Source: a virus. Taken from it: DNA of 38,926 bases. The DNA is taken from IMG/VR virus record IMGVR_UViG_3300027573_000072, positions 1 to 38,926 of that record; one strand, given 5' to 3'. Each line of letters starts with the position of its first letter. The first letter of the stretch is position 1. The position numbers and the translations under genes were made by a program. Positions 3,508 to 22,404 of the stretch are shown in pieces. The notes below the pieces were generated by a model. It saw only the letters and a list, made by a program, of their open reading frames with translations. It did not search any database and was not told where the DNA came from.

Positions 3508-3536
3508 TTGCAGGATTTGACATCGTGTGGTACACT
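3508..3536 (+). promoter_or_regulatory. Promoter of the tRNA array (copy A of a duplicated phage promoter)
   Basis: TTGCAG (3508-3513) lies 17 bases before TACACT (3531-3536), with TG one base upstream of the -10 (extended -10). Inside the spacer, TTGACA (3517-3522) and GTGTG are shared with a second copy before the RNase P RNA gene. The region 3441-3507 has no gene that I can see. Transcription would start near 3543 and run into the tRNA array. Confidence 0.65.
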
Positions 3537-5261: not shown

Positions 5262-5262
5262 T

Positions 5263-5345
5263 GCGAGTGTGTGGGCATTACCGTCTGCGTTTTCCACGCG
5301 CTGAGCGGCCGGGGGTGGAACCCGCGGTCCACCACACTTGCAACA
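5263..5345 (+). ncRNA. tRNA-sized unit without a normal T-loop (degenerate tRNA or novel RNA)
   Basis: This 83-base unit occupies a tRNA slot. Its ends pair as GCGAGTG/CACTTGC, and it finishes in AACA where the others have NCCA, one base before tRNA-Cys. A small arm TGCG TTTTCCA CGCG resembles an anticodon arm. The expected T-arm is replaced by GGTGG/CCACC with a 10-base loop lacking TTCGA, and the D-loop lacks GG. The end helix can extend to GCGAGTGTG/CACACTTGC. Confidence 0.4.
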
Positions 5346-5420: not shown

Positions 5421-5422
5421 TG

Positions 5423-5478
5423 GTCGGTTACTGGGGAGTGTTCGCGACACGGACGGTTCGACTCCGTCTGCCGATTCA
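5423..5478 (+). tRNA. Truncated tRNA-like unit lacking a D-arm, anticodon-like CGC (Ala)
   Basis: Between tRNA-Cys and tRNA-Arg lies a unit of only about 56 bases. It has a good T-arm (GACGG TTCGACT CCGTC) and acceptor-like ends (GTCGGTT with TGCCGAT). A short arm GTG TTCGCGA CAC would place CGC in the anticodon position. Only about 7-8 bases separate acceptor and anticodon arm, so no D-arm can form. The 3' end reads TTCA instead of NCCA. It may be a deletion remnant or a minimal tRNA. Confidence 0.45.
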
Positions 5479-5479
5479 T

Positions 5480-5863: not shown

Positions 5864-5941
5864 CAACCTGTAGCCCAAATGGCAGAGGCCTCCGGCTCAA
5901 ACCCGGAGCACGTGCGAGTTCGAGTCTCGCGAGGTTGACCA
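5864..5941 (+). tRNA. tRNA-Leu (CAA) with short variable loop
   Basis: The acceptor CAACCTG pairs with GAGGTTG except the innermost pair. The anticodon arm TCCGG CTCAAAC CCGGA carries CAA. The variable region is only about 6 bases, whereas leucine tRNAs are normally class II with a long arm. The D-loop resembles that of the Leu(GAG) gene at 6583. CCA is encoded. Confidence 0.82.
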
Positions 5942-5946
5942 CCAGT

Positions 5947-5975
5947 TTGCAGTCCTTGACAGGGTGTGCTATACT
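5947..5975 (+). promoter_or_regulatory. Promoter of the RNase P RNA gene (copy B)
   Basis: TTGCAG (5947-5952), a 17-base spacer containing TTGACA (5956-5961) and GTGTG, then TATACT (5970-5975) with TG one base upstream. It has the same arrangement as the array promoter at 3508-3536. The predicted start about 6 bases after the -10 coincides with the first base of the RNase P RNA P1 helix (5981). Confidence 0.7.
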
Positions 5976-5980
5976 GTAGC

Positions 5981-6316
5981 AGTAGATAGGTGGACTGTCG
6001 CGCATATCCGTTCGGTGACTTGTCCCGCGGTGAGTGAGGAAAGTCCCCGCAACCAGAGCCAGCCTACCGGCTAACGGCCGGCGCCCGCGAGGGTAGGACT
6101 AGTGCAACAGTGACGAACCGAGGTAGTGCTCGGGTGAAACGGGTAAACTCTAGGCGTTGCAAGTGCGAGTGCCCTATGACGAGGCTCGGTGGGGTGGAGA
6201 AGCACGCAAGGATTGTTCGAGCAATCGAACAGCAAGGTGGATGGCAGTCGTTCAGTTGGGAGCCGCAAGGCGCTTGAACCAAGGTCCACAGGACGGGGCT
6301 TATAGCCTATCTGCTC
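5981..6316 (+). ncRNA. rnpB: RNase P RNA (compact, type A-like)
   Basis: This is the catalytic RNA that removes 5' leaders from precursor tRNAs. P1 is formed by AGTAGATAGG (5981-5990) with CCTATCTGCT (6306-6315). The conserved core is present: GAGGAAAGTCC (6036-6046), AGTGCAACAGTGA (6101-6113), GGTGAAA (6133-6139) followed by GGTAAACTC (6142-6150), and ACAGGACGGGGCTTATAG near the 3' end. P4 forms between AAG-U-CCCC (6041-6048) and GGGGCTT (6295-6301), leaving U6044 bulged, as the universally conserved bulged U in helix P4 requires. Compared with the E. coli RNA as I recall it, the P12 hairpin and much of the P11-P14 region are missing, so the molecule is about 336 bases. It has its own promoter and sits inside the tRNA array. 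No RNase P protein gene is visible in the window. Confidence 0.88.
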
Positions 6317-6427
6317 AATGAAGCGGAGGTCTATGTTTCTCGACGGGGAAACCGGCCTCATGAAACCGGGGATGCTGCTAGCGCGAGGGCCCGGGATAGT
6401 GCGGTTGCCGAGCCCGCCATTACACAT
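6317..6427 (+). ncRNA. Structured segment between RNase P RNA and tRNA-Gln, unknown
   Basis: These 111 bases contain competing helices: ACCGG with CCGG around 6350-6368, and CCGGG (about 6366-6370) with CCCGG (about 6390-6394). They include CCCGCCA near the 3' end but no matching 5' acceptor strand. It may be the 3' trailer of the RNase P RNA or a decayed tRNA. No open frame looks coding. Confidence 0.35.
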
Positions 6428-6503
6428 TGGAATGTGGCCAAGTTGGCAAGGCTCCGGGCTCTGAACCCGGTAATCGTAGGTTCGAGCCCTACCGTTCCAG
6501 CCA
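6428..6503 (+). tRNA. tRNA-Gln (CTG)
   Basis: The acceptor TGGAATG pairs with CGTTCCA. The anticodon arm CCGGG CTCTGAA CCCGG carries CTG. The T-arm GTAGG/CCTAC is perfect. G73 and CCA are encoded. Confidence 0.92.
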
Positions 6504-7059: not shown

Positions 7060-7325
7060 ATGATTCGCGACTGCCAAGCAGCGCTGAGATTGCTCGGCCT
7101 TGATGGTGGACCGTCTGTAAACCGAGGGCTTGTCCCGCGGGGAAGAGGGACCACCCGCCCTTCGCGGGGCTGGTGGCGGTAAGTGTGGGCAGTCGCGTAC
7201 TTACAAGCCTGTACGCTAGGTGTAGAAACTCGGACTCCCTAGCGATGGTGGAGGGGACCTGTCCGGCAGGTTGGGTCGTTCCGGAAAGCGGAAGCGACGG
7301 CGTAACTCTCCTACACGCCTTACAC
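7060..7325 (+). ncRNA. Large two-domain structured RNA between tRNA-Thr and tRNA-Phe, unknown
   Basis: Domain 1 is closed by a perfect 10-bp helix, CGCGACTGCC (7066-7075) with GGCAGTCGCG (7188-7197). It contains internal hairpins CTCGG/CCGAG and CCACC..CCCGC / GCGGG..GGTGG. Domain 2 is bracketed by GTGTAG (7220-7225) with CTACAC (7311-7316) and contains ACCTG/CAGGT and GTCG-TTCCG / CGGAA-GCGAC hairpins. GCGTAC/GTACGC (7195-7216) could compete with the domain 1 helix. There is no T-arm, anticodon arm or tag-like reading frame. The density of helices suggests a functional RNA rather than spacer. Confidence 0.55.
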
Positions 7326-7861: not shown

Positions 7862-8021
7862 TGGGCCGAAAGGTCCGATATATTCGGGTGACTGGCGGGT
7901 CACCCCACGGAACTCACTTCGGGTGAGTAGCCCGTAAATGGCCCGCTGCATTTGATAAGCGTCCCCTCGAAAGGACGTGGAGCGTGGCGGAACCCCTCCT
8001 CACGAAGGGAGGGATCGCACC
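7862..8021 (+). ncRNA. Hairpin-rich trailer of the tRNA array and leader of the next gene
   Basis: Consecutive hairpins are GGGCC/GGTCC (about 7863-7876), GGGTGAC 7886-7892 with GTCACCC 7899-7905, ACTCAC 7912-7917 with GTGAGT 7923-7928 around a TTCG-type loop, CGTCC 7960-7964 with GGACG 7973-7977, and CCCTCC 7994-7999 with GGAGGG 8008-8013. The last one covers the ribosome-binding site of the gene starting at 8022. No U-tract follows, so this does not look like an intrinsic terminator. A possible -10 (TATATT, 7879) lacks a convincing -35. Confidence 0.45.
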
Positions 8022-8198
8022 GTGGGCAGCAGTAAACGACGCGGCACCGGGCTGACAGTACGGACCGCGGCGGAGGGCCTAACGAGCCTGAACCTGTGGG
8101 TGGAACCCAACCGTGGGTCTCGGAGTCCTGACAAGGACTGTTACCGTACTTCGTACGCCGAGTGCTGGTACACGAAAGTCCAGCCGTTCACCGCCTGA
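8022..8198 (+). CDS. Small hypothetical protein (58 aa)
   Basis: GTG 8022 is preceded by GGGAGGG at a workable distance and encodes 58 residues that begin MGSSKRRGTGLTVR and are rich in W, Y and basic residues (LNLWVEP, AECWYTKV). The frame is open somewhat further upstream, but that part overlaps the structured RNA. The strong ribosome-binding site and a stop just before the terminase region support a real gene. Its ribosome-binding site can be sequestered by a 6-bp hairpin (7994-8013). It may be the first gene of the packaging operon. No family recognised. Confidence 0.5.
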   Translation: MGSSKRRGTGLTVRTAAEGLTSLNLWVEPNRGSRSPDKDCYRTSYAECWYTKVQPFTA

Positions 8199-8257: not shown

Positions 8258-9001
8258 ATGTCCGGAGAAATGATGCCAAGAGCCGCTGCCGCCGTTAGAG
8301 ACACCGAGGGTCGGTCGGAGAGCGCTTCACGCACTACTCATCAGGCCGGGGAGAAGTCGCTGACCACCCGTCGTGGCGGTCGCCCACCGGGCTCGAAGAA
8401 CAAGCCGAAGTCGCTGGTCCCCACTGAACTGGCCGACGCCATGCTCCTCAAGATGGAGGGCACCGTTCCGCCGGAGCACTTCACGTACCTTCGTGGTGTC
8501 ATTCGAGACGGCAAGGCAATCTCGACCAAGCGCGAGTTGGACGCCCTGATCCTCATTCTATCGCGCAACCTCATGCCGGCAATGATCGGCGAGATGACCT
8601 CGGCCGTCGGCGACGATGGCGAAATCAACGTTGAGTCTTACTTCCGCAGGGACGTAACTGACCGCATCAAGGTCCTCAACTCCCTACTTGCGCTCCGACA
8701 TCAGGTCGAGAAGCGGGAGGAAGATAAGGCAGATGGTCCAGAACCGCTTCTCAAAGTTTGGGCAAGTCGAGACCTCCGAGGACGACTTGCTGTACTTGTT
8801 GGCGACCAACCCGGCAGTCTGGTTGGAGACACTGACCTCCTTGGAGGGCGAGCCGACCAAGTTGGAGACCTACCAGATTCGGTTCCTGAACGACAAGTCA
8901 GCGTACCGGATAGTGGACAAGTCGAGGCAGATCGGGTTCTCGACGGTCCTGTCGGCGGAAGCGACCTTCCGAGCGGCGACGCAGAGGAACTACCGGGCTA
9001 A
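8258..9001 (+). CDS. Putative small terminase subunit / DNA-binding protein with AT-hook-like motif
   Basis: From ATG 8258 the frame encodes 247 residues. The first ~158 look like a real phage protein: a low-complexity N-terminus, then GRPPGSKNKPK, an AT-hook-like DNA-contacting motif common in phage packaging-region proteins, then helical segments (ALILILSRNLMPAMIG, VLNSLLALRHQVEKREED). Its position directly before terL suggests the small terminase subunit, which recognises phage DNA; this is inferred from position. ATG 8270/8273 with GGAG just upstream is an alternative start. The last ~90 codons overlap terL in another frame and are glycine/valine/aspartate-rich, like a shadow frame, so the true C terminus is uncertain. 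Confidence 0.6.
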   Translation: MSGEMMPRAAAAVRDTEGRSESASRTTHQAGEKSLTTRRGGRPPGSKNKPKSLVPTELADAMLLKMEGTVPPEHFTYLRGVIRDGKAISTKRELDALILILSRNLMPAMIGEMTSAVGDDGEINVESYFRRDVTDRIKVLNSLLALRHQVEKREEDKADGPEPLLKVWASRDLRGRLAVLVGDQPGSLVGDTDLLGGRADQVGDLPDSVPERQVSVPDSGQVEADRVLDGPVGGSDLPSGDAEELPG

Positions 9002-10223
9002 CATCGTCTCCATCAACCAGAAGGAGGCGGGCGACAAGGTTGACATCGCCCGAGCGCTGTACCACAGCATCGGCGACGAGTTCCGTGAGACCGACCCAGT
9101 CCTCAAGCCGATCCTTTGGACCGACGCGGACAACGAGATTTCGTTCCACCGCCCCCCCGACACGAGCGCCATCATCTCTCAGCCGGCCTCCTCCGCCATC
9201 CGCGGTGGCCGCAAGGACATCTACTTCGATGAGTTCGCGCACGTTCGCGATGCGAAGAAGTTGTACCGGGCCGCACTTCCCGCCATCACCCGGGGCGGCG
9301 CACGAATCACTATCGTCTCTACTCCGCTAGCGCAGTCCGGCATGTTCTTCGACATCTGGTCCGGAGAGCAGACCTACGCGAACTACTCGCGGCACCTTGT
9401 CCCGTGGTGGGAGTGTTCCGCGATGGTCCGCGAAGGTGCGCTTCCCGACGCACTAGCACTTGCCTCTGGACTCACCACCGAGGAACGCGTCCGCCAGTAC
9501 GGCACGGACAAACTCATCTCGATCTTCGAGGAGTTCGGTAACGACACCGTCGGATTCCGCACTGAGTACGAGTGCGAGTTCGAGGATGAGATGTCGGCCT
9601 ACTACACGTGGGACCTGATCCAGTCCTGCACGGACCACGACCAGAAGATTTGGCGAGACTGGAATGGCCTCTTCCGTTCCGAAGGCTCACTGTCTATCGG
9701 GGTGGACTTGGCCCGTGACCGAGACCAGACCGTGTTTACGGTGGTCGAGACCCTACCCGGTCCTGACGATTCGTCTACTCGTCGTGTCCTCTTCACGAAG
9801 GCCACGCAGGACCCGTACAACGAGCAGTTCGAGTACCTTCGTCGCTTGATCGCCGCTACGAATCCAGCACGTGTCACCATCGACCAGACCGGCGTCGGCC
9901 AGAAGTTCGTTGAGGACGCCAAGCGCGAGATAAGCGGAAACATCGAGGGCGTTGTCTTCACTAACCAGCGCAAGGAGCGATGGGCTACCACCCTCAAGGG
10001 TGACATGCAAATGGGCCTCGTAACGTGGCCCAACCATCAGGACTTGACGAGACAGATTCACGGCATACGCCGGACGAAGACCGAAGCGAACTTCTACAAG
10101 TTTGCGGGCAACAAGGACGACTACTTTTGGAGTCTCGTCCTAGCACTGTACGGAGACTCTCGGCGCCCGGTGCGCATGGGATTCTTGGGAGGGCCTTGGA
10201 GCCATGAAACCGGAACCAGTTAG
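8733..10223 (+). CDS. terL: Terminase large subunit (packaging ATPase-nuclease)
   Basis: TerL pumps DNA into the prohead and cuts it. The 496-residue product has a Walker A-like segment KSRQIGFST (about 63-71), Walker B IYFDEF (163-168), a coupling-motif region ITIVSTP (about 192-198), and a C-terminal RNase H-like nuclease with acidic motifs in SIGVDLARDRDQT and TIDQTGVGQ. The frame is open back to a TTG at 8688, but ATG 8733 is a better start, with GGAGG 12 bases and AAGG 4-7 bases upstream. The final 20 bases overlap the next gene. Confidence 0.92.
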   Translation: MVQNRFSKFGQVETSEDDLLYLLATNPAVWLETLTSLEGEPTKLETYQIRFLNDKSAYRIVDKSRQIGFSTVLSAEATFRAATQRNYRANIVSINQKEAGDKVDIARALYHSIGDEFRETDPVLKPILWTDADNEISFHRPPDTSAIISQPASSAIRGGRKDIYFDEFAHVRDAKKLYRAALPAITRGGARITIVSTPLAQSGMFFDIWSGEQTYANYSRHLVPWWECSAMVREGALPDALALASGLTTEERVRQYGTDKLISIFEEFGNDTVGFRTEYECEFEDEMSAYYTWDLIQSCTDHDQKIWRDWNGLFRSEGSLSIGVDLARDRDQTVFTVVETLPGPDDSSTRRVLFTKATQDPYNEQFEYLRRLIAATNPARVTIDQTGVGQKFVEDAKREISGNIEGVVFTNQRKERWATTLKGDMQMGLVTWPNHQDLTRQIHGIRRTKTEANFYKFAGNKDDYFWSLVLALYGDSRRPVRMGFLGGPWSHETGTS

Positions 10224-10404: not shown

Positions 10405-10623
10405 GTGGACGTTCGCGACCTCGACCGGGCGGTGTCCCGGACCGAACTTAGTCCCCTCGTCAAACTCTTCCTACGAAGAGTTCGGCGCGCGATTGATCGC
10501 GGGGACGTTGAGGGGTTCACTATTACCAAGTCAGCGTGGTCCGTCTCCGTGATGGATACAACCGGCTTCTGCTGCACGTACGTGTTCGCACTTAGGAAAG
10601 AGAATGGCAACGACAAGAACTAG
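10405..10623 (+). CDS. Hypothetical protein between terminase and portal
   Basis: GTG 10405 starts three bases after the previous stop and encodes 72 residues: a basic helical N-terminal half (LVKLFLRRVRRAIDRG) and a mixed beta-like C-terminal half with two adjacent cysteines (FCCTYVF). It overlaps the portal gene by 20 bases. No recognised family. The tight spacing on both sides argues that it is translated. Confidence 0.65.
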   Translation: MDVRDLDRAVSRTELSPLVKLFLRRVRRAIDRGDVEGFTITKSAWSVSVMDTTGFCCTYVFALRKENGNDKN

Positions 10624-11947
10624 AACCTCAAAGGCTCAGGTCGCCGTTACGCCAAAGGGCGATGTCGTCGGCAGAATCTCCGCGCTGGTCCCGTCCGGTC
10701 AGGCCACCACTACGGTGCGCGACCTGCCACGTAAGGAACGGTACGCGGTGTACTACGCGATGTACCGACAGCACCCGACGCTACGTGCGGGCATCGAGAA
10801 GATCGCTAAGGTAGCCGTCGCTAACGGATACCGCTTCGTGCCGTCGGTTGCCGACGATGAGGTCGAGGATTCCAAAGTGTCGTCGTTGCGGACGTTCTTC
10901 CGCACGTCGAACGGTAGTCAGTTGCTTCGATTGACCTACAAGGACCTTCTGATATTCGGTGAGTCCTTCTGGCTCATAGTGACCACCGGCAATGATATGC
11001 CCAACAAGGCCGTCCGACTCCACCCGCGCTACATCAATGAGCGCATGAACGGCGCCCTACTCGGCGGTTGGGACTACGGTCCGGTGTACAACGAGGATCA
11101 GGTCATCAAGTACTCGGCCGATGAGGTCGTTCAGTTCAAGTTCGACGATCCGGATAACGACATCCGCGGATTGTCATTGCTGGCGAGCCTCGAACTGTCC
11201 GTTGCCGGCGATCTGTTCTCCATGAAGTTCAACGAGAAGTACTTCGAGAACGCCGCCCATACCGGTACGATCTTCAACATGAAGAACGCGAGTACCGAGG
11301 AGGTTCAGCGCAACCGAGAGTGGATGGAGCAGAACTACGTCGGTACCGACAACGCCCACCGTCCGGTCATCCTAGAGGGTGACATCGACGTCCAGCGTTC
11401 GGTGAGTACCCGTCAGGAGATGCAGTTCATCGAACTGCGTGAGTTCTCTCGTCAAGAGATTCTATCGGTGCTCGACATTGACCCGACCAAGATCGGTGTC
11501 AACGAGGACTCGAACCGTTCGACCAGTAAGGAAGCGGATAACACCTTCCGACAGGAGAACATCGCTCCGCTCCAACTCGTCGTCGAGGAAGAGGTCAATA
11601 ACCACCTGATCCTTCGGATGTTTGGGTGGGACGACGTCCTGTTCCGACAGAACGACTCATCCCGTCGAGACATGCTCGACATGATGAAACTCTACGCCGA
11701 GGGTGAGAAGATGGGTGTCTTCTCAATCAACCAGATCGGGTCAGAGATTGGGCTGCCGCACATCAAGGGCGGCGACGTTCACTTCATCCAGACGGCCGCG
11801 GGGGCTATCCCTGTCGAGTGGCTCGACGATGTCGCATCACGGCTGATACCGCCCGTTGCCGGGCTAGTTCCGCGAATACCAGACAGTAGCGTACCAGAGG
11901 TTCCTCCGAGCGAGGAGACTGGCGGCGAGGACCAAGTAGATGGCTAA
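10604..11947 (+). CDS. Portal protein
   Basis: The portal forms the dodecameric DNA channel at one capsid vertex and docks terminase and the head-tail connectors. The 447-residue protein has the HK97-type portal pattern: an alpha-helical start, a stem and wing region around GESFWLIV and VRLHPRYINE, the characteristic IRGLSLLASLELSVAGD segment, and a long C-terminal region with KEADNTFRQENIAPL. Length is usual for siphovirus portals. It overlaps the protease gene by 8 bases, consistent with a single head operon. The C-terminal ~30 residues are proline- and acid-rich. Confidence 0.9.
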   Translation: MATTRTRTSKAQVAVTPKGDVVGRISALVPSGQATTTVRDLPRKERYAVYYAMYRQHPTLRAGIEKIAKVAVANGYRFVPSVADDEVEDSKVSSLRTFFRTSNGSQLLRLTYKDLLIFGESFWLIVTTGNDMPNKAVRLHPRYINERMNGALLGGWDYGPVYNEDQVIKYSADEVVQFKFDDPDNDIRGLSLLASLELSVAGDLFSMKFNEKYFENAAHTGTIFNMKNASTEEVQRNREWMEQNYVGTDNAHRPVILEGDIDVQRSVSTRQEMQFIELREFSRQEILSVLDIDPTKIGVNEDSNRSTSKEADNTFRQENIAPLQLVVEEEVNNHLILRMFGWDDVLFRQNDSSRRDMLDMMKLYAEGEKMGVFSINQIGSEIGLPHIKGGDVHFIQTAAGAIPVEWLDDVASRLIPPVAGLVPRIPDSSVPEVPPSEETGGEDQVDG

Positions 11948-13068: not shown

Positions 13069-13950
13069 ATGGAGCAGACAACCATCCGCAAGGCCCTTGA
13101 CCTAGCGTCAAGCGGCTCTTACCTGATCCCGGAGTTGGTGAACGAGGCTATCCGCGACTACGCGTCGAAGGAACCTGTTCTAGCCAACATCGTGGCTCGG
13201 GTACCGTGGGCGACGAACACGTACTTCGTACGTCGTCGAACCGCGCTCCCGACCTCCTCGTGGTCTACTGACGGTGCGGCCCTTCCGGCAGCATCCCAGT
13301 CCACCTTCGAGAAGGTCAGCAAGGCGGTCAAGTACCTCTACACCCGTGGAGAGGTCACTGGACCGATGCAGGCAGCGGCAGGCTCGCTGTACAACGCCAT
13401 GTCACTTGAGGTCGAGGCACACCAGCGCTCGCTAGTCGAGCAGTTGTCCTCCGACATCGCTGTGGCAACCGGTGGCTCCAATGACATCGAGGGTATCCTT
13501 CACCAGATCGACACCAACGATGCAATCAACTGGGGTGGCACCGGTTCCGGCGTGGTCTCAGGTGGCGCAACCACCCTGACGCTAGCCAAGATCGACGAGG
13601 CTATCGACATGACCCGCGGCGAGGCTGACATCATGGTCACCAGCCGACAGGTCCGTCGAAAGATCAACTCGCTCTTGCAGGCGACGCAGCAGTTCAACGA
13701 CACCGTTGAAGTGGGTGCAGGATTCCGCGTGCTCTCGTACGACGGCATTCCTATCGTAACGGACCTCCACTGGGAGACCGGTACGGACATCCTCTTCTTC
13801 CGTCGCGCTGACGCGAAGTTGCTCGTGCACAAGGACTTCACCTTTGAGGAGTTGGCCAAGACCAAGGACTCGGTGGACTTCATGATAAAGGGCTACTTCG
13901 GCTTCTCGCTTGAGGGTCGTCCGGCTCACCTGAACAACTTCACCCTATAG
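13069..13950 (+). CDS. Major capsid protein (HK97 fold)
   Basis: This 293-residue protein follows the protease gene and has the layout of HK97-type capsid proteins: an N-terminal helix, an E-loop-like region (FVRRRTALPTSSWSTDGAALPAASQSTFEKV), a spine helix (AMSLEVEAHQRSLVEQLSSDIA), and a C-terminal P/A-domain stretch ending FGFSLEGRPAHLNNF. No long cleavable N-terminal delta domain is present, in line with the separate scaffold. ATG 13069 is preceded by GAGGGTAAG. A hairpin follows the stop, probably relevant to its high expression. Confidence 0.9.
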   Translation: MEQTTIRKALDLASSGSYLIPELVNEAIRDYASKEPVLANIVARVPWATNTYFVRRRTALPTSSWSTDGAALPAASQSTFEKVSKAVKYLYTRGEVTGPMQAAAGSLYNAMSLEVEAHQRSLVEQLSSDIAVATGGSNDIEGILHQIDTNDAINWGGTGSGVVSGGATTLTLAKIDEAIDMTRGEADIMVTSRQVRRKINSLLQATQQFNDTVEVGAGFRVLSYDGIPIVTDLHWETGTDILFFRRADAKLLVHKDFTFEELAKTKDSVDFMIKGYFGFSLEGRPAHLNNFTL

Positions 13951-18928: not shown

Positions 18929-19003
18929 ATGGGCCACGCGAACACAGTGGATACTCATAGACGGGTAATCACCACAGTGCTCGCGTGGCCCCTTTTTGAT
19001 TGA
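18929..19003 (+). CDS. 24-codon leader ORF coupled to the tape measure gene
   Basis: ATG 18929 is preceded by AAGGGG and encodes 24 residues beginning MGHANTVD and ending AWPLFD. Its stop TGA (19001-19003) overlaps the tape measure ATG (19003-19005) as TGATG. The tape measure ATG has no ribosome-binding site of its own, since a pyrimidine tract lies just upstream, so ribosomes finishing this ORF probably reinitiate there. The reading frame covers the whole inverted repeat described separately. The peptide has no recognisable function. Confidence 0.55.
   Translation: MGHANTVDTHRRVITTVLAWPLFD
18931..18997 (+). terminator. Long inverted repeat with T-run before the tape measure gene
   Basis: GGGCCACGCGA (18931-18941) is the perfect complement of TCGCGTGGCCC (18981-18991), followed by C and TTTTT (18993-18997). 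The 39-base loop is long for an intrinsic terminator, but stem and T-run are right. Translation of the leader ORF through the repeat would prevent the stem forming, which would make this a translation-controlled attenuator. Confidence 0.5.
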
Positions 19004-22000
19004 TGACCGCCACCCTTAGGAACATTCACCTTCAAATCGTCATTGACGTAAAGAACCTGCCGGCCCTCCGGACCCTATCCAGTTCGCTACAAAGCGTGCA
19101 GGGGTCCACGCAGGGCGCGACGCGGGCCTTCCAAGGCCAGACGAATAACGCGCTGCACCCGCTAGCGGCCGCGTACCGTGACCTGACCGATAACCTCACC
19201 CGAACAGAGAAGGCCATGGACGCCGTTTGGCGTGCCGCTTCCCACTACGAGCAGGTAGGCCGTCGGCTCATCGACGTGGCCCGCCAGATCGTAGACCTCG
19301 GCATGAACATCGTCAGCACTTACGCCGACTACGACTACTGGCTACGCCGCGCCGGTGTCGCACTCAACACGAATGTTGTCTGGCAGCAGAGACTTGACGA
19401 CGCTATTCAGGGCACCGCAAAGGCTGTTGGTCTGTTCAGTCCGGAAGAGGCCGCTGAGGCGTACAACATTTGGGGTGCCGCCACCGGTGTCGTTGTCGAT
19501 AACCAGAAGACACTCGCCGCCGTTACGGCTACCGTAGAGAAGATCATGATTGCCACCGCTGGCGCGGGTGGCACGCTCGAAACGAACCTCAAGGGTGTGT
19601 CGGGTATCCTTGGCATCTTCAACCTCGGCATCGAGGACGCTGGACGTGTAACTGAGGTCCTAGCGCTCATGACCGAGCGTACGCAGGCGGACTTCGGCGA
19701 CCTCATTAGCGCCTTCACCTACATTGGTCCTCAGGCTAGGTCCATGGGCATCGAGTTCGACGACGTCGCGCAGATGCTTGGTGTCCTAGCGGATGCCGGC
19801 CAGCGCGGTAGCCGCGCCGGTCGCGGACTGTCCATGATGATTGAGGGTCTGTTGGCCCCGACCGACGCAATCACCGCTAAACTCAGCGAGTTGACGCTGC
19901 GTACCAAGGGCGTAGGCAAGACGTGGGAGGAAATCGCCTTCCCGAACGACAAGTTCGCCGGGCTCGACAGCATCGTTCGCGACCTGTCAAAGACCTACAT
20001 GGGCATGACCGACTCGGAGAAGGCGTGGTTCAACGCCCGTGCGGCATCGAACAACGCTATCCGGGCCCTACTCCCGCTGGTGAACTCAACCATCGACCTT
20101 TGGAACCGGGATGCCGACGCTATGGCCCGCGGTCAGGTGGCCGTTGACAAGCAGAAGTACTCCCTAGAGAACGCCGGTGCCTTCTTCGAGAACATGAAGG
20201 TCCAGATGCTCGGCAGCATCAAGGCCATCGTCGGGTCGTTCAAGAACTCGTTCTTCCCGATCCTACAGATGGTTGCCCTCAAGATCATGGAACTGGCTCA
20301 GCCGGTGATGAACGTCATCCTTGTCGCGCTCGACAAGTTGACGGAGTACCTCAAGGACAATCCCGCCTTCGTAGACTTCATCGTGAAGATGGCGGCCATG
20401 ACGGCCGGCGTGTTCGCCGTCGGTGGCGCGATGTTCCTCATCCTCGGCAACGTGCTTGGCCTAGCCACCGCGTTCGTCATGTTTGTCTCGACCGTCCTTC
20501 CGCTCATCGGCATGTTCTCCCTGCTCGCCTCCATCGTTGGCCGGTTTGGTAAGTCCGTGGCCGACAATGCGTTCGGTATCCGTGACGCCTTCGTGCACGC
20601 CGGCGAGGCGATCCGAGACCTCATCGGCAAGTTGGCTGACAGTTTCGGTCGCTTCTTCGACAGCGTTCAGCCGCTCGTCAACGTGCTTGAGGATTTGGTA
20701 GACTCCGGGATCAAGGTCCTAGCCGAGTTCATCGAGTCTCTGGCCGACGCTATCGACCGACTGACGCCGGAGCAGGTCGATACGATCCGGGACATCGTGC
20801 TGGCTATCGCAGGGTTCCTCGCACTCCGCGTAGGTCTTGGCCTGCTAGGATCGGTCCTTCTCGGACTCGTTACGACCCTAGGCGGCCTGTTCGGCATCGC
20901 CCGCGGATCGTCCTCAATCCTCCTACTACTGACGCGCCTGCTCAACCTGACGAAGGCTGTAGCGGCGATCAGCCTCATCAAGACGGCCATTGTCGGTCTC
21001 ACGACTGCGCTCAAGGGCGGCGTCCTCGTTGGCGCCATCCGGGCCATCGGTCTGGCTATCACTGCCAGCCTGATCCCCGCCCTAATCGCCCTCGCGACTA
21101 ACCCGGTGGTGCTCGCTATCGTCGCTATCATCGCCGCTATCGCTCTGGCCGTCGCCGCCTACCAGACCAACTTCATGGGATTCAAGGACTTTGTCGATGG
21201 CGTGGTCGCGTGGATCAGTGAGAACGTCATCCCGCCGCTCATGGGCTTCATCGAGGCGGTGGCCGGATTCGTCTCTGGTGTCATCGAAGGCATCATTGGC
21301 GCGGTCACGTGGGTCGTAGAGGCCGTAGAGGGCGTCATCGACTTCTTCTCCAACCTGCCGGAGAACATCGCCGCCATCTGGACGTCCATCGTAGAGGGGA
21401 TTCAGTCCTTCATCGACTCCGTCCTGACGTTTATCGGTGACTTTCTCGCCGACTTGGGCGAGAACTGGGCCTACTACCTCGGATTCATCCTCGGCTTCGT
21501 CGTCGGCTGGTGGATCAACCTCTGGAAGTTCATAATCACGACCATTATCAACATCGTCACCGGGGTCATCGGCTGGATCGCTAAACTTCCGGGCATGATT
21601 CTCGACTGGCTCGTCGTCCTCTGGAACCTCCTAGCCGGGTGGTTCGGGGACCTGATTGAGGCCGTTGTCGGATGGGTCACGGACCTTGTCACTGGCATCG
21701 TGGACTGGTTCCTCAAGTTGCCGGGCCGTGTCCTTGACGCACTCGTCGGGCTATGGAACACCATCTCGACGTGGTTCATCACGAACGTACCGAAGATCAT
21801 TCAGTTCGTCGCCGACATGATTCCGAAGATCGTGCAGTTCTTCATTGACCTGCCGGGGAAGATCATTGACGCGGTCATTGGCCTGCCCGGGCTCCTTCGC
21901 GACTTCATCGTAGACATCGTTCCGAAGATTTGGCAGAACCTACTCAATGTAGGCAAGGACTTCGTCCGCGGCATTTGGGGAGGCATCATCTCCCTCAAGA

Positions 22001-22404
22001 ACTGGATCATTGACAAGATCATGGACTTCGCCGGCGGATTCATCGACGGTATCAAGGCCGCCCTAGGCATCGCGTCCCCGTCCAAGGTGATGGCTGCCGT
22101 TGGTGTCAATGTCGTTCAGGGTCTCGCTAGGGGTCTTCTTAGTGCGGACGATGCTCGTCGCGCCATGGCAACGATCACGAGCCAGTTGACCGACATGGCT
22201 ATCGCCGGCACGTCAGACATCGCCCTGTCCCCGGGCGCCTTCTCCTCGTCAACAACCTCCTCCGCTACCCGGGTTATCGAACTCAAGGTGACCGTTGAGT
22301 CGCCTGACGGCTCGGTAAGCGACGTAGACCTCTCATCCCTCAAGGACCTCATCACCGGCTCTGACATGGTCAGGGCCCTAGAGCACATGAGCACAGTAGC
22401 CTAA
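19003..22404 (+). CDS. Tape measure protein
   Basis: At 1133 residues this is the second-longest gene in the window, following the chaperones as expected. It contains a conserved phage tail tape measure core near the N-terminal third (FGDLISAFTYIGPQARSMGI, a segment with GLSMMIEGLLAPTDAI, and WFNARAASNNAIRALLPLV), several long hydrophobic stretches (GVFAVGGAMFLILGNVLGLA, VLAIVAIIAAIALAVAAY) and a repetitive tryptophan-rich helical part (about 720-960). It sets tail length and may help DNA cross the host membrane. A TTG one codon upstream is a less likely start. Confidence 0.9.
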   Translation: MTATLRNIHLQIVIDVKNLPALRTLSSSLQSVQGSTQGATRAFQGQTNNALHPLAAAYRDLTDNLTRTEKAMDAVWRAASHYEQVGRRLIDVARQIVDLGMNIVSTYADYDYWLRRAGVALNTNVVWQQRLDDAIQGTAKAVGLFSPEEAAEAYNIWGAATGVVVDNQKTLAAVTATVEKIMIATAGAGGTLETNLKGVSGILGIFNLGIEDAGRVTEVLALMTERTQADFGDLISAFTYIGPQARSMGIEFDDVAQMLGVLADAGQRGSRAGRGLSMMIEGLLAPTDAITAKLSELTLRTKGVGKTWEEIAFPNDKFAGLDSIVRDLSKTYMGMTDSEKAWFNARAASNNAIRALLPLVNSTIDLWNRDADAMARGQVAVDKQKYSLENAGAFFENMKVQMLGSIKAIVGSFKNSFFPILQMVALKIMELAQPVMNVILVALDKLTEYLKDNPAFVDFIVKMAAMTAGVFAVGGAMFLILGNVLGLATAFVMFVSTVLPLIGMFSLLASIVGRFGKSVADNAFGIRDAFVHAGEAIRDLIGKLADSFGRFFDSVQPLVNVLEDLVDSGIKVLAEFIESLADAIDRLTPEQVDTIRDIVLAIAGFLALRVGLGLLGSVLLGLVTTLGGLFGIARGSSSILLLLTRLLNLTKAVAAISLIKTAIVGLTTALKGGVLVGAIRAIGLAITASLIPALIALATNPVVLAIVAIIAAIALAVAAYQTNFMGFKDFVDGVVAWISENVIPPLMGFIEAVAGFVSGVIEGIIGAVTWVVEAVEGVIDFFSNLPENIAAIWTSIVEGIQSFIDSVLTFIGDFLADLGENWAYYLGFILGFVVGWWINLWKFIITTIINIVTGVIGWIAKLPGMILDWLVVLWNLLAGWFGDLIEAVVGWVTDLVTGIVDWFLKLPGRVLDALVGLWNTISTWFITNVPKIIQFVADMIPKIVQFFIDLPGKIIDAVIGLPGLLRDFIVDIVPKIWQNLLNVGKDFVRGIWGGIISLKNWIIDKIMDFAGGFIDGIKAALGIASPSKVMAAVGVNVVQGLARGLLSADDARRAMATITSQLTDMAIAGTSDIALSPGAFSSSTTSSATRVIELKVTVESPDGSVSDVDLSSLKDLITGSDMVRALEHMSTVA

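Follow-up and report, generated by a model that had tools for sequence, protein, structure and literature searches.

RNase P RNA is a near-universal cellular ribozyme, and the bacterial RNA alone is catalytic at high Mg2+; in vivo, to our knowledge, RNase P requires the protein subunit RnpA in the bacteria studied so far. The canonical loop L15 (CGGGUA) supplies the GGU that pairs with the CCA of the tRNA. With E. coli M1 RNA (rnpB) and the Rfam family RF00010, the phage RNA described here has in common the conserved regions, helix P4 with its bulged U, the GNRA loops of P9 and P18 and the general layout (P1-P3, P5, P7-P12, P15-P18), whereas it differs from M1 RNA in being phage-encoded, in lying within a tRNA array without an accompanying rnpA, in the absence of P13 and P14, in a short P12 and in a hairpin between the P2 and P4 3' strands.

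Phage tRNA arrays, known from T4 and other phages (survey in PMC6409571), are, like the present one, clusters of tRNA genes that need RNase P, and the T4 tRNA dimers are substrates of the host enzyme (PMC11143913), whereas this array carries the catalytic RNA of RNase P itself. Some natural RNase P RNAs, those of CPR bacteria among them, lack P13, P14 and even P12, which are not strictly required, and low-threshold searches are needed to find them (PMC8172020); the phage RNA is alike in lacking P13 and P14. GOLLD RNA is also a structured non-coding RNA of tRNA arrays, as far as a title cited in PMC9569102 tells, but it is not an RNase P RNA, and no Rfam match to GOLLD was obtained in the analyzed DNA. 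No published description of a phage RNase P RNA was found in open-access full text (subscription journals and preprints were not covered): a survey of huge phages does not use the words RNase P (PMC7162821), and in a 2024 review of RNase P phages appear solely as a source of host-processed tRNAs (PMC11143913). Phage RNase P RNA in tRNA arrays thus appears to be unreported so far.

The RNase P RNA gene and its setting

The stretch of DNA that was analyzed (hereafter the window) spans one IMG/VR record in full (38,926 bases). Genes for ribonucleotide reductase, the large terminase subunit (TerL), portal, capsid, head-tail adaptor, tape measure and tail proteins were found on it (Table 1) and, judged by the presence of TerL, portal, capsid and tape measure, the contig is that of a tailed phage. 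The array holds about 40 viral tRNA genes in total. All 36 tRNAs called by ARAGORN have encoded CCA ends, and 28 of the 35 spacers between them are 1–3 nt long, so that each 5' cut would leave the upstream tRNA with its CCA plus 1–3 nt and the array transcript is expected to be heavily RNase P-dependent.

Table 1. Coordinates of the main features of the window
Feature	Position	Strand	Support or remark
Terminase large subunit	8688..10223	+	phrog_2 4.5e-30, PF17289, PF03237; query for relatives
Portal protein	10604..11947	+	phrog_2662 4.6e-52
Major capsid protein	13069..13950	+	phrog_212 2.2e-13; PF05065
Tail tape measure protein	19000..22404	+	phrog_1272 1.4e-56
tRNA array, all 20 amino acids by anticodon	3731..7861	+	36 ARAGORN tRNAs, more by Rfam or by eye
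tRNA-Leu(CAA), conserved upstream neighbor of RNase P RNA	5864..5941	+	ARAGORN; kept in relatives
tRNA-Gln(CTG), conserved downstream neighbor of RNase P RNA	6428..6503	+	ARAGORN; kept in relatives
RNase P RNA gene of class A, 337 nt	5982..6318	+	RF00010; 40/89 pairs compensated, 9 phage homologues
P1 5' strand, 10 bp with 6305-6314	5982..5991	+	Rfam structure projected onto window
P4 5' strand, U6044 bulged	6041..6049	+	8 standard pairs with 6294-6301
P4 3' strand	6294..6301	+	Rfam structure projection; compensated pairs in alignment
Likely RNase P RNA promoter: extended -10 TGCTATACT (5967-5975), weak -35 (TTTGCA/TTGCAG)	5947..5975	+	Consensus scan
Motif TTGACATCGTGTGGTACACT ahead of tRNA array; second copy before RNase P RNA (5956-5975)	3517..3536	+	0 expected by shuffling

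Within this array, cmscan placed the class A model RF00010 at 5982-6318 (+) with 140.5 bits (gathering score 100, E = 2.6e-43), the match spanning the full model (1-367) with 43 model positions skipped, those of P13 and P14. The covariance-model check that the earlier note on this DNA had named beforehand was therefore passed, above the cut-off and with P4 aligned. The features which that note had read from the letters were all recovered, i.e., the conserved core (GAGGAAAGTCC at 6036, AGTGCAACAGTGA at 6101, GGTAAACTC at 6142, and a 3' ACAGGACGGGGCTTATAG), a 10-bp P1 and a P4 with U6044 bulged; the latter comprises 8 bp (6041-6043 and 6045-6049 pairing with 6294-6301) when the Rfam structure is projected on the window. 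This structure gives 81 pairs, 76 of them standard and five non-standard. The conserved regions GAGGAAAGUCC, AGUGCNACAG, GGUGAAA, GGUAA and ACAGNAC...GGCUUA are all found in the window, and deviate in two relatives (G002 and G020) with compensation in P4, while GNRA loops were recognized by eye on P9 (GCGA) and P18 (GCAA).

The specificity domain (P11-P14) is incomplete. The note had held P12 and much of P11-P14 to be absent, which is right for P13 and P14 and wrong for P12, kept as a short hairpin of 4–5 bp (about 6119-6134). Its description of the RNA as miniaturised is fair at 337 nt (311 nt in some relatives), though this short stem survives. Loop L15 reads UGGAGA in the window, which keeps the GG and not the U, and GGGU, GGU or GAGU in the relatives. 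Sequence and structure identify 5982-6318 (+) as an RNase P RNA of class A in its full length, whose catalytic activity is inferred only; the RF00010 match, P4 and the syntenic relatives described below likewise support the note's main proposal that the phage encodes an RNase P RNA within its tRNA array.

A start 7 nt past the predicted -10 element would fall on 5982, the first base of P1. An extended -10 promoter-like sequence stands at the 5' end of the RNA in all nine sequences of the clade, and in the relatives the same place is occupied by TTGACA, N17/18 and TAYACT with an extended -10 TGN, the exception being G002 (variant TAGACT, no TTGACA). The sequence TTGACANNNTGTGNTAYACT occurs exactly twice in the window (3517 and 5956), with no copy expected by chance, so the RNase P RNA gene and the tRNA array probably share a promoter type, the use of which is inferred. 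In both copies TTGACA stands just 8 nt from TAYACT, compared with 17–18 nt in the relatives.

Relatives, covariation and spread across IMG/VR

Relatives were collected from IMG/VR by TerL (27 records, 45–100% identity). RF00010 was found in nine of them, seven above the cut-off and two just below it (90.5–137.2 bits); one of the nine is a near-identical longer (63-kb) contig of the window's phage, and eight are diverged. The RNA lies between tRNA-Leu(CAA) and tRNA-Gln(CTG) in 9/9 records, and this arrangement recurs in a tenth record of the same clade (L020, 7.7 kb), which a pattern search brought up. The gap to tRNA-Gln is 1–6 nt in seven of eight relatives, 109 nt in the window and 698 nt in G020. 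RNase P RNA was missing from the whole records L091, L092, L102, L103, and L111, whose TerL surroundings showed no tRNA array, the arrays of RNase P-negative relatives having been assessed in the fetched stretches around TerL only. Three further records (L093, L094, and L098) are uninformative, as they stop before the RNase P RNA site.

The window and eight relatives were aligned, using the structure from Rfam and not one derived from these sequences. Changes on both sides were present in 40 of 89 pairs, compared with 16.8 ± 2.8 in shuffled alignments (0/500 reached 40) and 5–13 in slid structures; pairing holds in 87% of the alignment cells, and the covariation score is 0.356 vs. 0.127. P4 is 100% paired in the nine sequences, with both sides changed in three of its eight pairs and the bulged U retained: most members have CCCCG/CGGGG, in contrast to CCGGG/CCCGG in E. 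coli, and G002 and G020 have AGG-U-CGGCG with CGCCGCCU. P4 belongs to the least variable parts of the ribozyme, and its changes compensate each other. Taking the syntenic relatives and the compensatory changes together, the phage RNase P RNA is inferred to be a maintained, structurally constrained RNA. Minimum free energy folding gave no significant gain over shuffled sequence (z = −0.88), a result that was counted against a functional reading and is uninformative. For structure-function studies, the array-embedded phage RNAs also provide a naturally occurring collection of rapidly evolving RNase P RNAs in which P4 pairs have changed.

The window clade is 52% identical to the E. coli RNase P RNA, and its core signature (GAGGAAAGTCCCCGC...AGNGCAACAGNGA) had no match among 84,980 GTDB genomes, which leaves it without an identified donor and makes the clade look like a lineage of its own; in this respect it is unlike the CPR RNAs, which are cellular genes.

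Outside this clade, two core patterns matched 12 and 86 IMG/VR stretches, and RF00010 was present in 44 of 50 such records tested. At 27 of the examined loci, five or more tRNAs lie no farther than 3 kb from the RNA, and the tRNAs that flank it most closely share its strand, with gaps as narrow as about −1 to 12 nt on both sides in L012, L013, L017, L023, and L037. The array-embedded copies are 274–415 nt long. Grouped at 80% identity, these 27 loci give about 13 groups, 12 of them besides the window clade, and they are dispersed across a tree built from the phage sequences; no fewer than 12 further sequence groups thus have RNase P RNA within tRNA arrays, often 0–12 nt from the flanking tRNAs. 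The records of L009 (369 kb), L010 (363 kb), L020, L028, L043, and L046 have a confirmed TerL; in other array records no TerL was detected and their phage nature therefore rests on IMG/VR. The tree has a single cellular reference (E. coli M1 RNA), and the number of independent captures is for this reason unsettled. The recurrence extends virus-borne translation functions to the catalytic RNA of tRNA maturation.

RNase P RNA without nearby tRNAs was also encountered (L002, L003, L005, L007, L024, L027, and others), in some cases on contigs of 268–481 kb with a TerL match; records of this kind may include host flanks.

Blastn searches of INPHARED with seven different phage RNase P RNAs yielded no credible cultured phage that carries one. 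The matches comprised a Salmonella chromosome contig, Acinetobacter contigs in which the match falls in a bacterial flank (coaD), and unannotated faecal contigs that provide no credible phage example. In Microcystis phage MaAM05 (MW495066.1, 111323-119473; L122) a match resembling RNase P RNA, absent from the annotation, lies close to fabI, engB, mtgA, and glyS; these neighbors look bacterial and the record was rejected. The bacterial-looking gene content of MaAM05 bears on ribosomal-protein claims made for this 'phage'.

Protein partner and competing explanations

The protein subunit (RnpA, PF00825) was detected in 0/49 RNase P-bearing phage records vs. 10/14 control genomes. Since the phage records are possibly incomplete, a phage rnpA could sit in a missing part; nevertheless, from its absence in 49 records a hybrid enzyme with host RnpA is inferred, and the suggestion that such a phage could process its tRNAs independently of the host becomes doubtful for the protein subunit. 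The host itself could not be approached through TerL, as 71 pattern matches in GTDB genomes contained no relative and the best identity to cultured phages is 29%.

We favor the reading, with a probability of roughly 0.7, that a hybrid RNase P made of the phage class A RNA and host RnpA matures the phage tRNAs. The identity, structure, conservation, and position of the RNA and the lack of a detectable phage rnpA are direct observations, while promoter use, pairing with RnpA, catalysis, and benefit are inferred. During infection the RNA would be transcribed from its own sigma-70-type promoter within the tRNA array, fold, and recruit host RnpA, and the resulting enzyme would cut the 5' ends of the densely packed, CCA-ended phage tRNAs, each cut nearly finishing the 3' end of the upstream tRNA as well, given spacers of 1–3 nt. 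In most relatives, in which the RNA ends 1–6 nt before tRNA-Gln, RNase P cleavage at this tRNA would also make the 3' end of the RNA. A phage-borne catalytic subunit may raise RNase P capacity while about 40 tRNAs are made at once, and may make the phage independent of a host rnpB that is limiting or damaged. Against the hybrid enzyme stand the UGGAGA of L15, the loss of P13 and P14, the five non-standard pairs, and the weak -35 of the window; there are no activity or expression data, and the host is unknown.

The same arrangement could instead be a self-processing module, in which the RNA cuts its own polycistronic tRNA transcript from the tRNA fused to its 3' end and has little need of RnpA. 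The short distance to tRNA-Gln in 7/8 relatives, the other phages that squeeze the RNA between tRNAs, the missing rnpA, and the generally known catalysis by the RNA alone at high Mg2+ are all compatible with this, but in the window tRNA-Gln is 109 nt away, RnpA is generally held to be needed in vivo, and that of the host would be present; we consider this explanation unlikely. Little credence is given to a decoy, i.e., an RNA that sequesters host RnpA, or binds pre-tRNA without cutting it, and so inhibits host tRNA maturation. The phage does have the RNA without the protein, and a competing RNA subunit could titrate RnpA; a decoy, however, need not keep P4, whereas the phage RNA has kept its catalytic core, with the conserved regions, P4 and the bulged U, through compensatory changes, and is located among tRNA genes that themselves need RNase P.

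Capture of a host gene as functionless cargo would fit the habit of tRNA arrays to collect cellular RNA genes, and other phage copies do score host-like (260–308 bits), as recent captures would, yet decay is expected of a passive copy, and the window clade, diverged as it is from E. coli, covaries and keeps its promoter and place, which makes this reading very improbable. Assembly chimerism or bacterial contamination, although plainly bacterial sequence does occur among the INPHARED records with RNase P RNA, was rejected for the window clade and retains next to no plausibility, with the core signature absent from the GTDB genomes and the near-identical 63-kb record and eight diverged contigs showing the same site among phage tRNAs near TerL.

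Returning to the hybrid enzyme, a broader version can be proposed tentatively, and we would sooner expect it to fail than to hold: many phage lineages would have taken up RNase P RNA independently, and their arrays would be self-processing operons, with the ribozyme excised from, and maturing, its own transcript and only RnpA borrowed. If this were true, translation supply would continue even in a host that defends itself by degrading or blocking its own RNase P RNA or tRNAs. These phages also make it possible to test if RNase P is limiting, or comes under attack, while a phage infects its host.

Other RNAs of the arrays

Several tRNA-like stretches of the window were not called by ARAGORN (5262-5345, 5421-5479, and 6319-6427). 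One of these lacks CCA and has no normal T loop, one, of only 59 nt, has a T arm and lacks another arm, and a stretch with a CAT-like anticodon is located 3' of the RNase P RNA. A tRNA with a CTA anticodon in a relative's array (L105:1979-2052) was called as tRNA-Pyl and is a possible TAG suppressor. Just past the tRNA array, at 7960-8194, there is a sub-threshold match to manA RNA (RF01745; 29.6 bits, cut-off 55.2, E = 9.5e-5).

The same arrays have another conserved non-coding RNA, located at 7060-7325 in the window (core about 7195-7320) and at L074:2968-3129, L090:8610-8814, L095:8682-8854, L096:8293-8457, and others. It has no Rfam match, and possibly represents a new RNA family. In most members it is flanked by tRNA-Thr(TGT) and tRNA-Phe(GAA), and compensatory changes were observed in 10 of its 20 predicted pairs.
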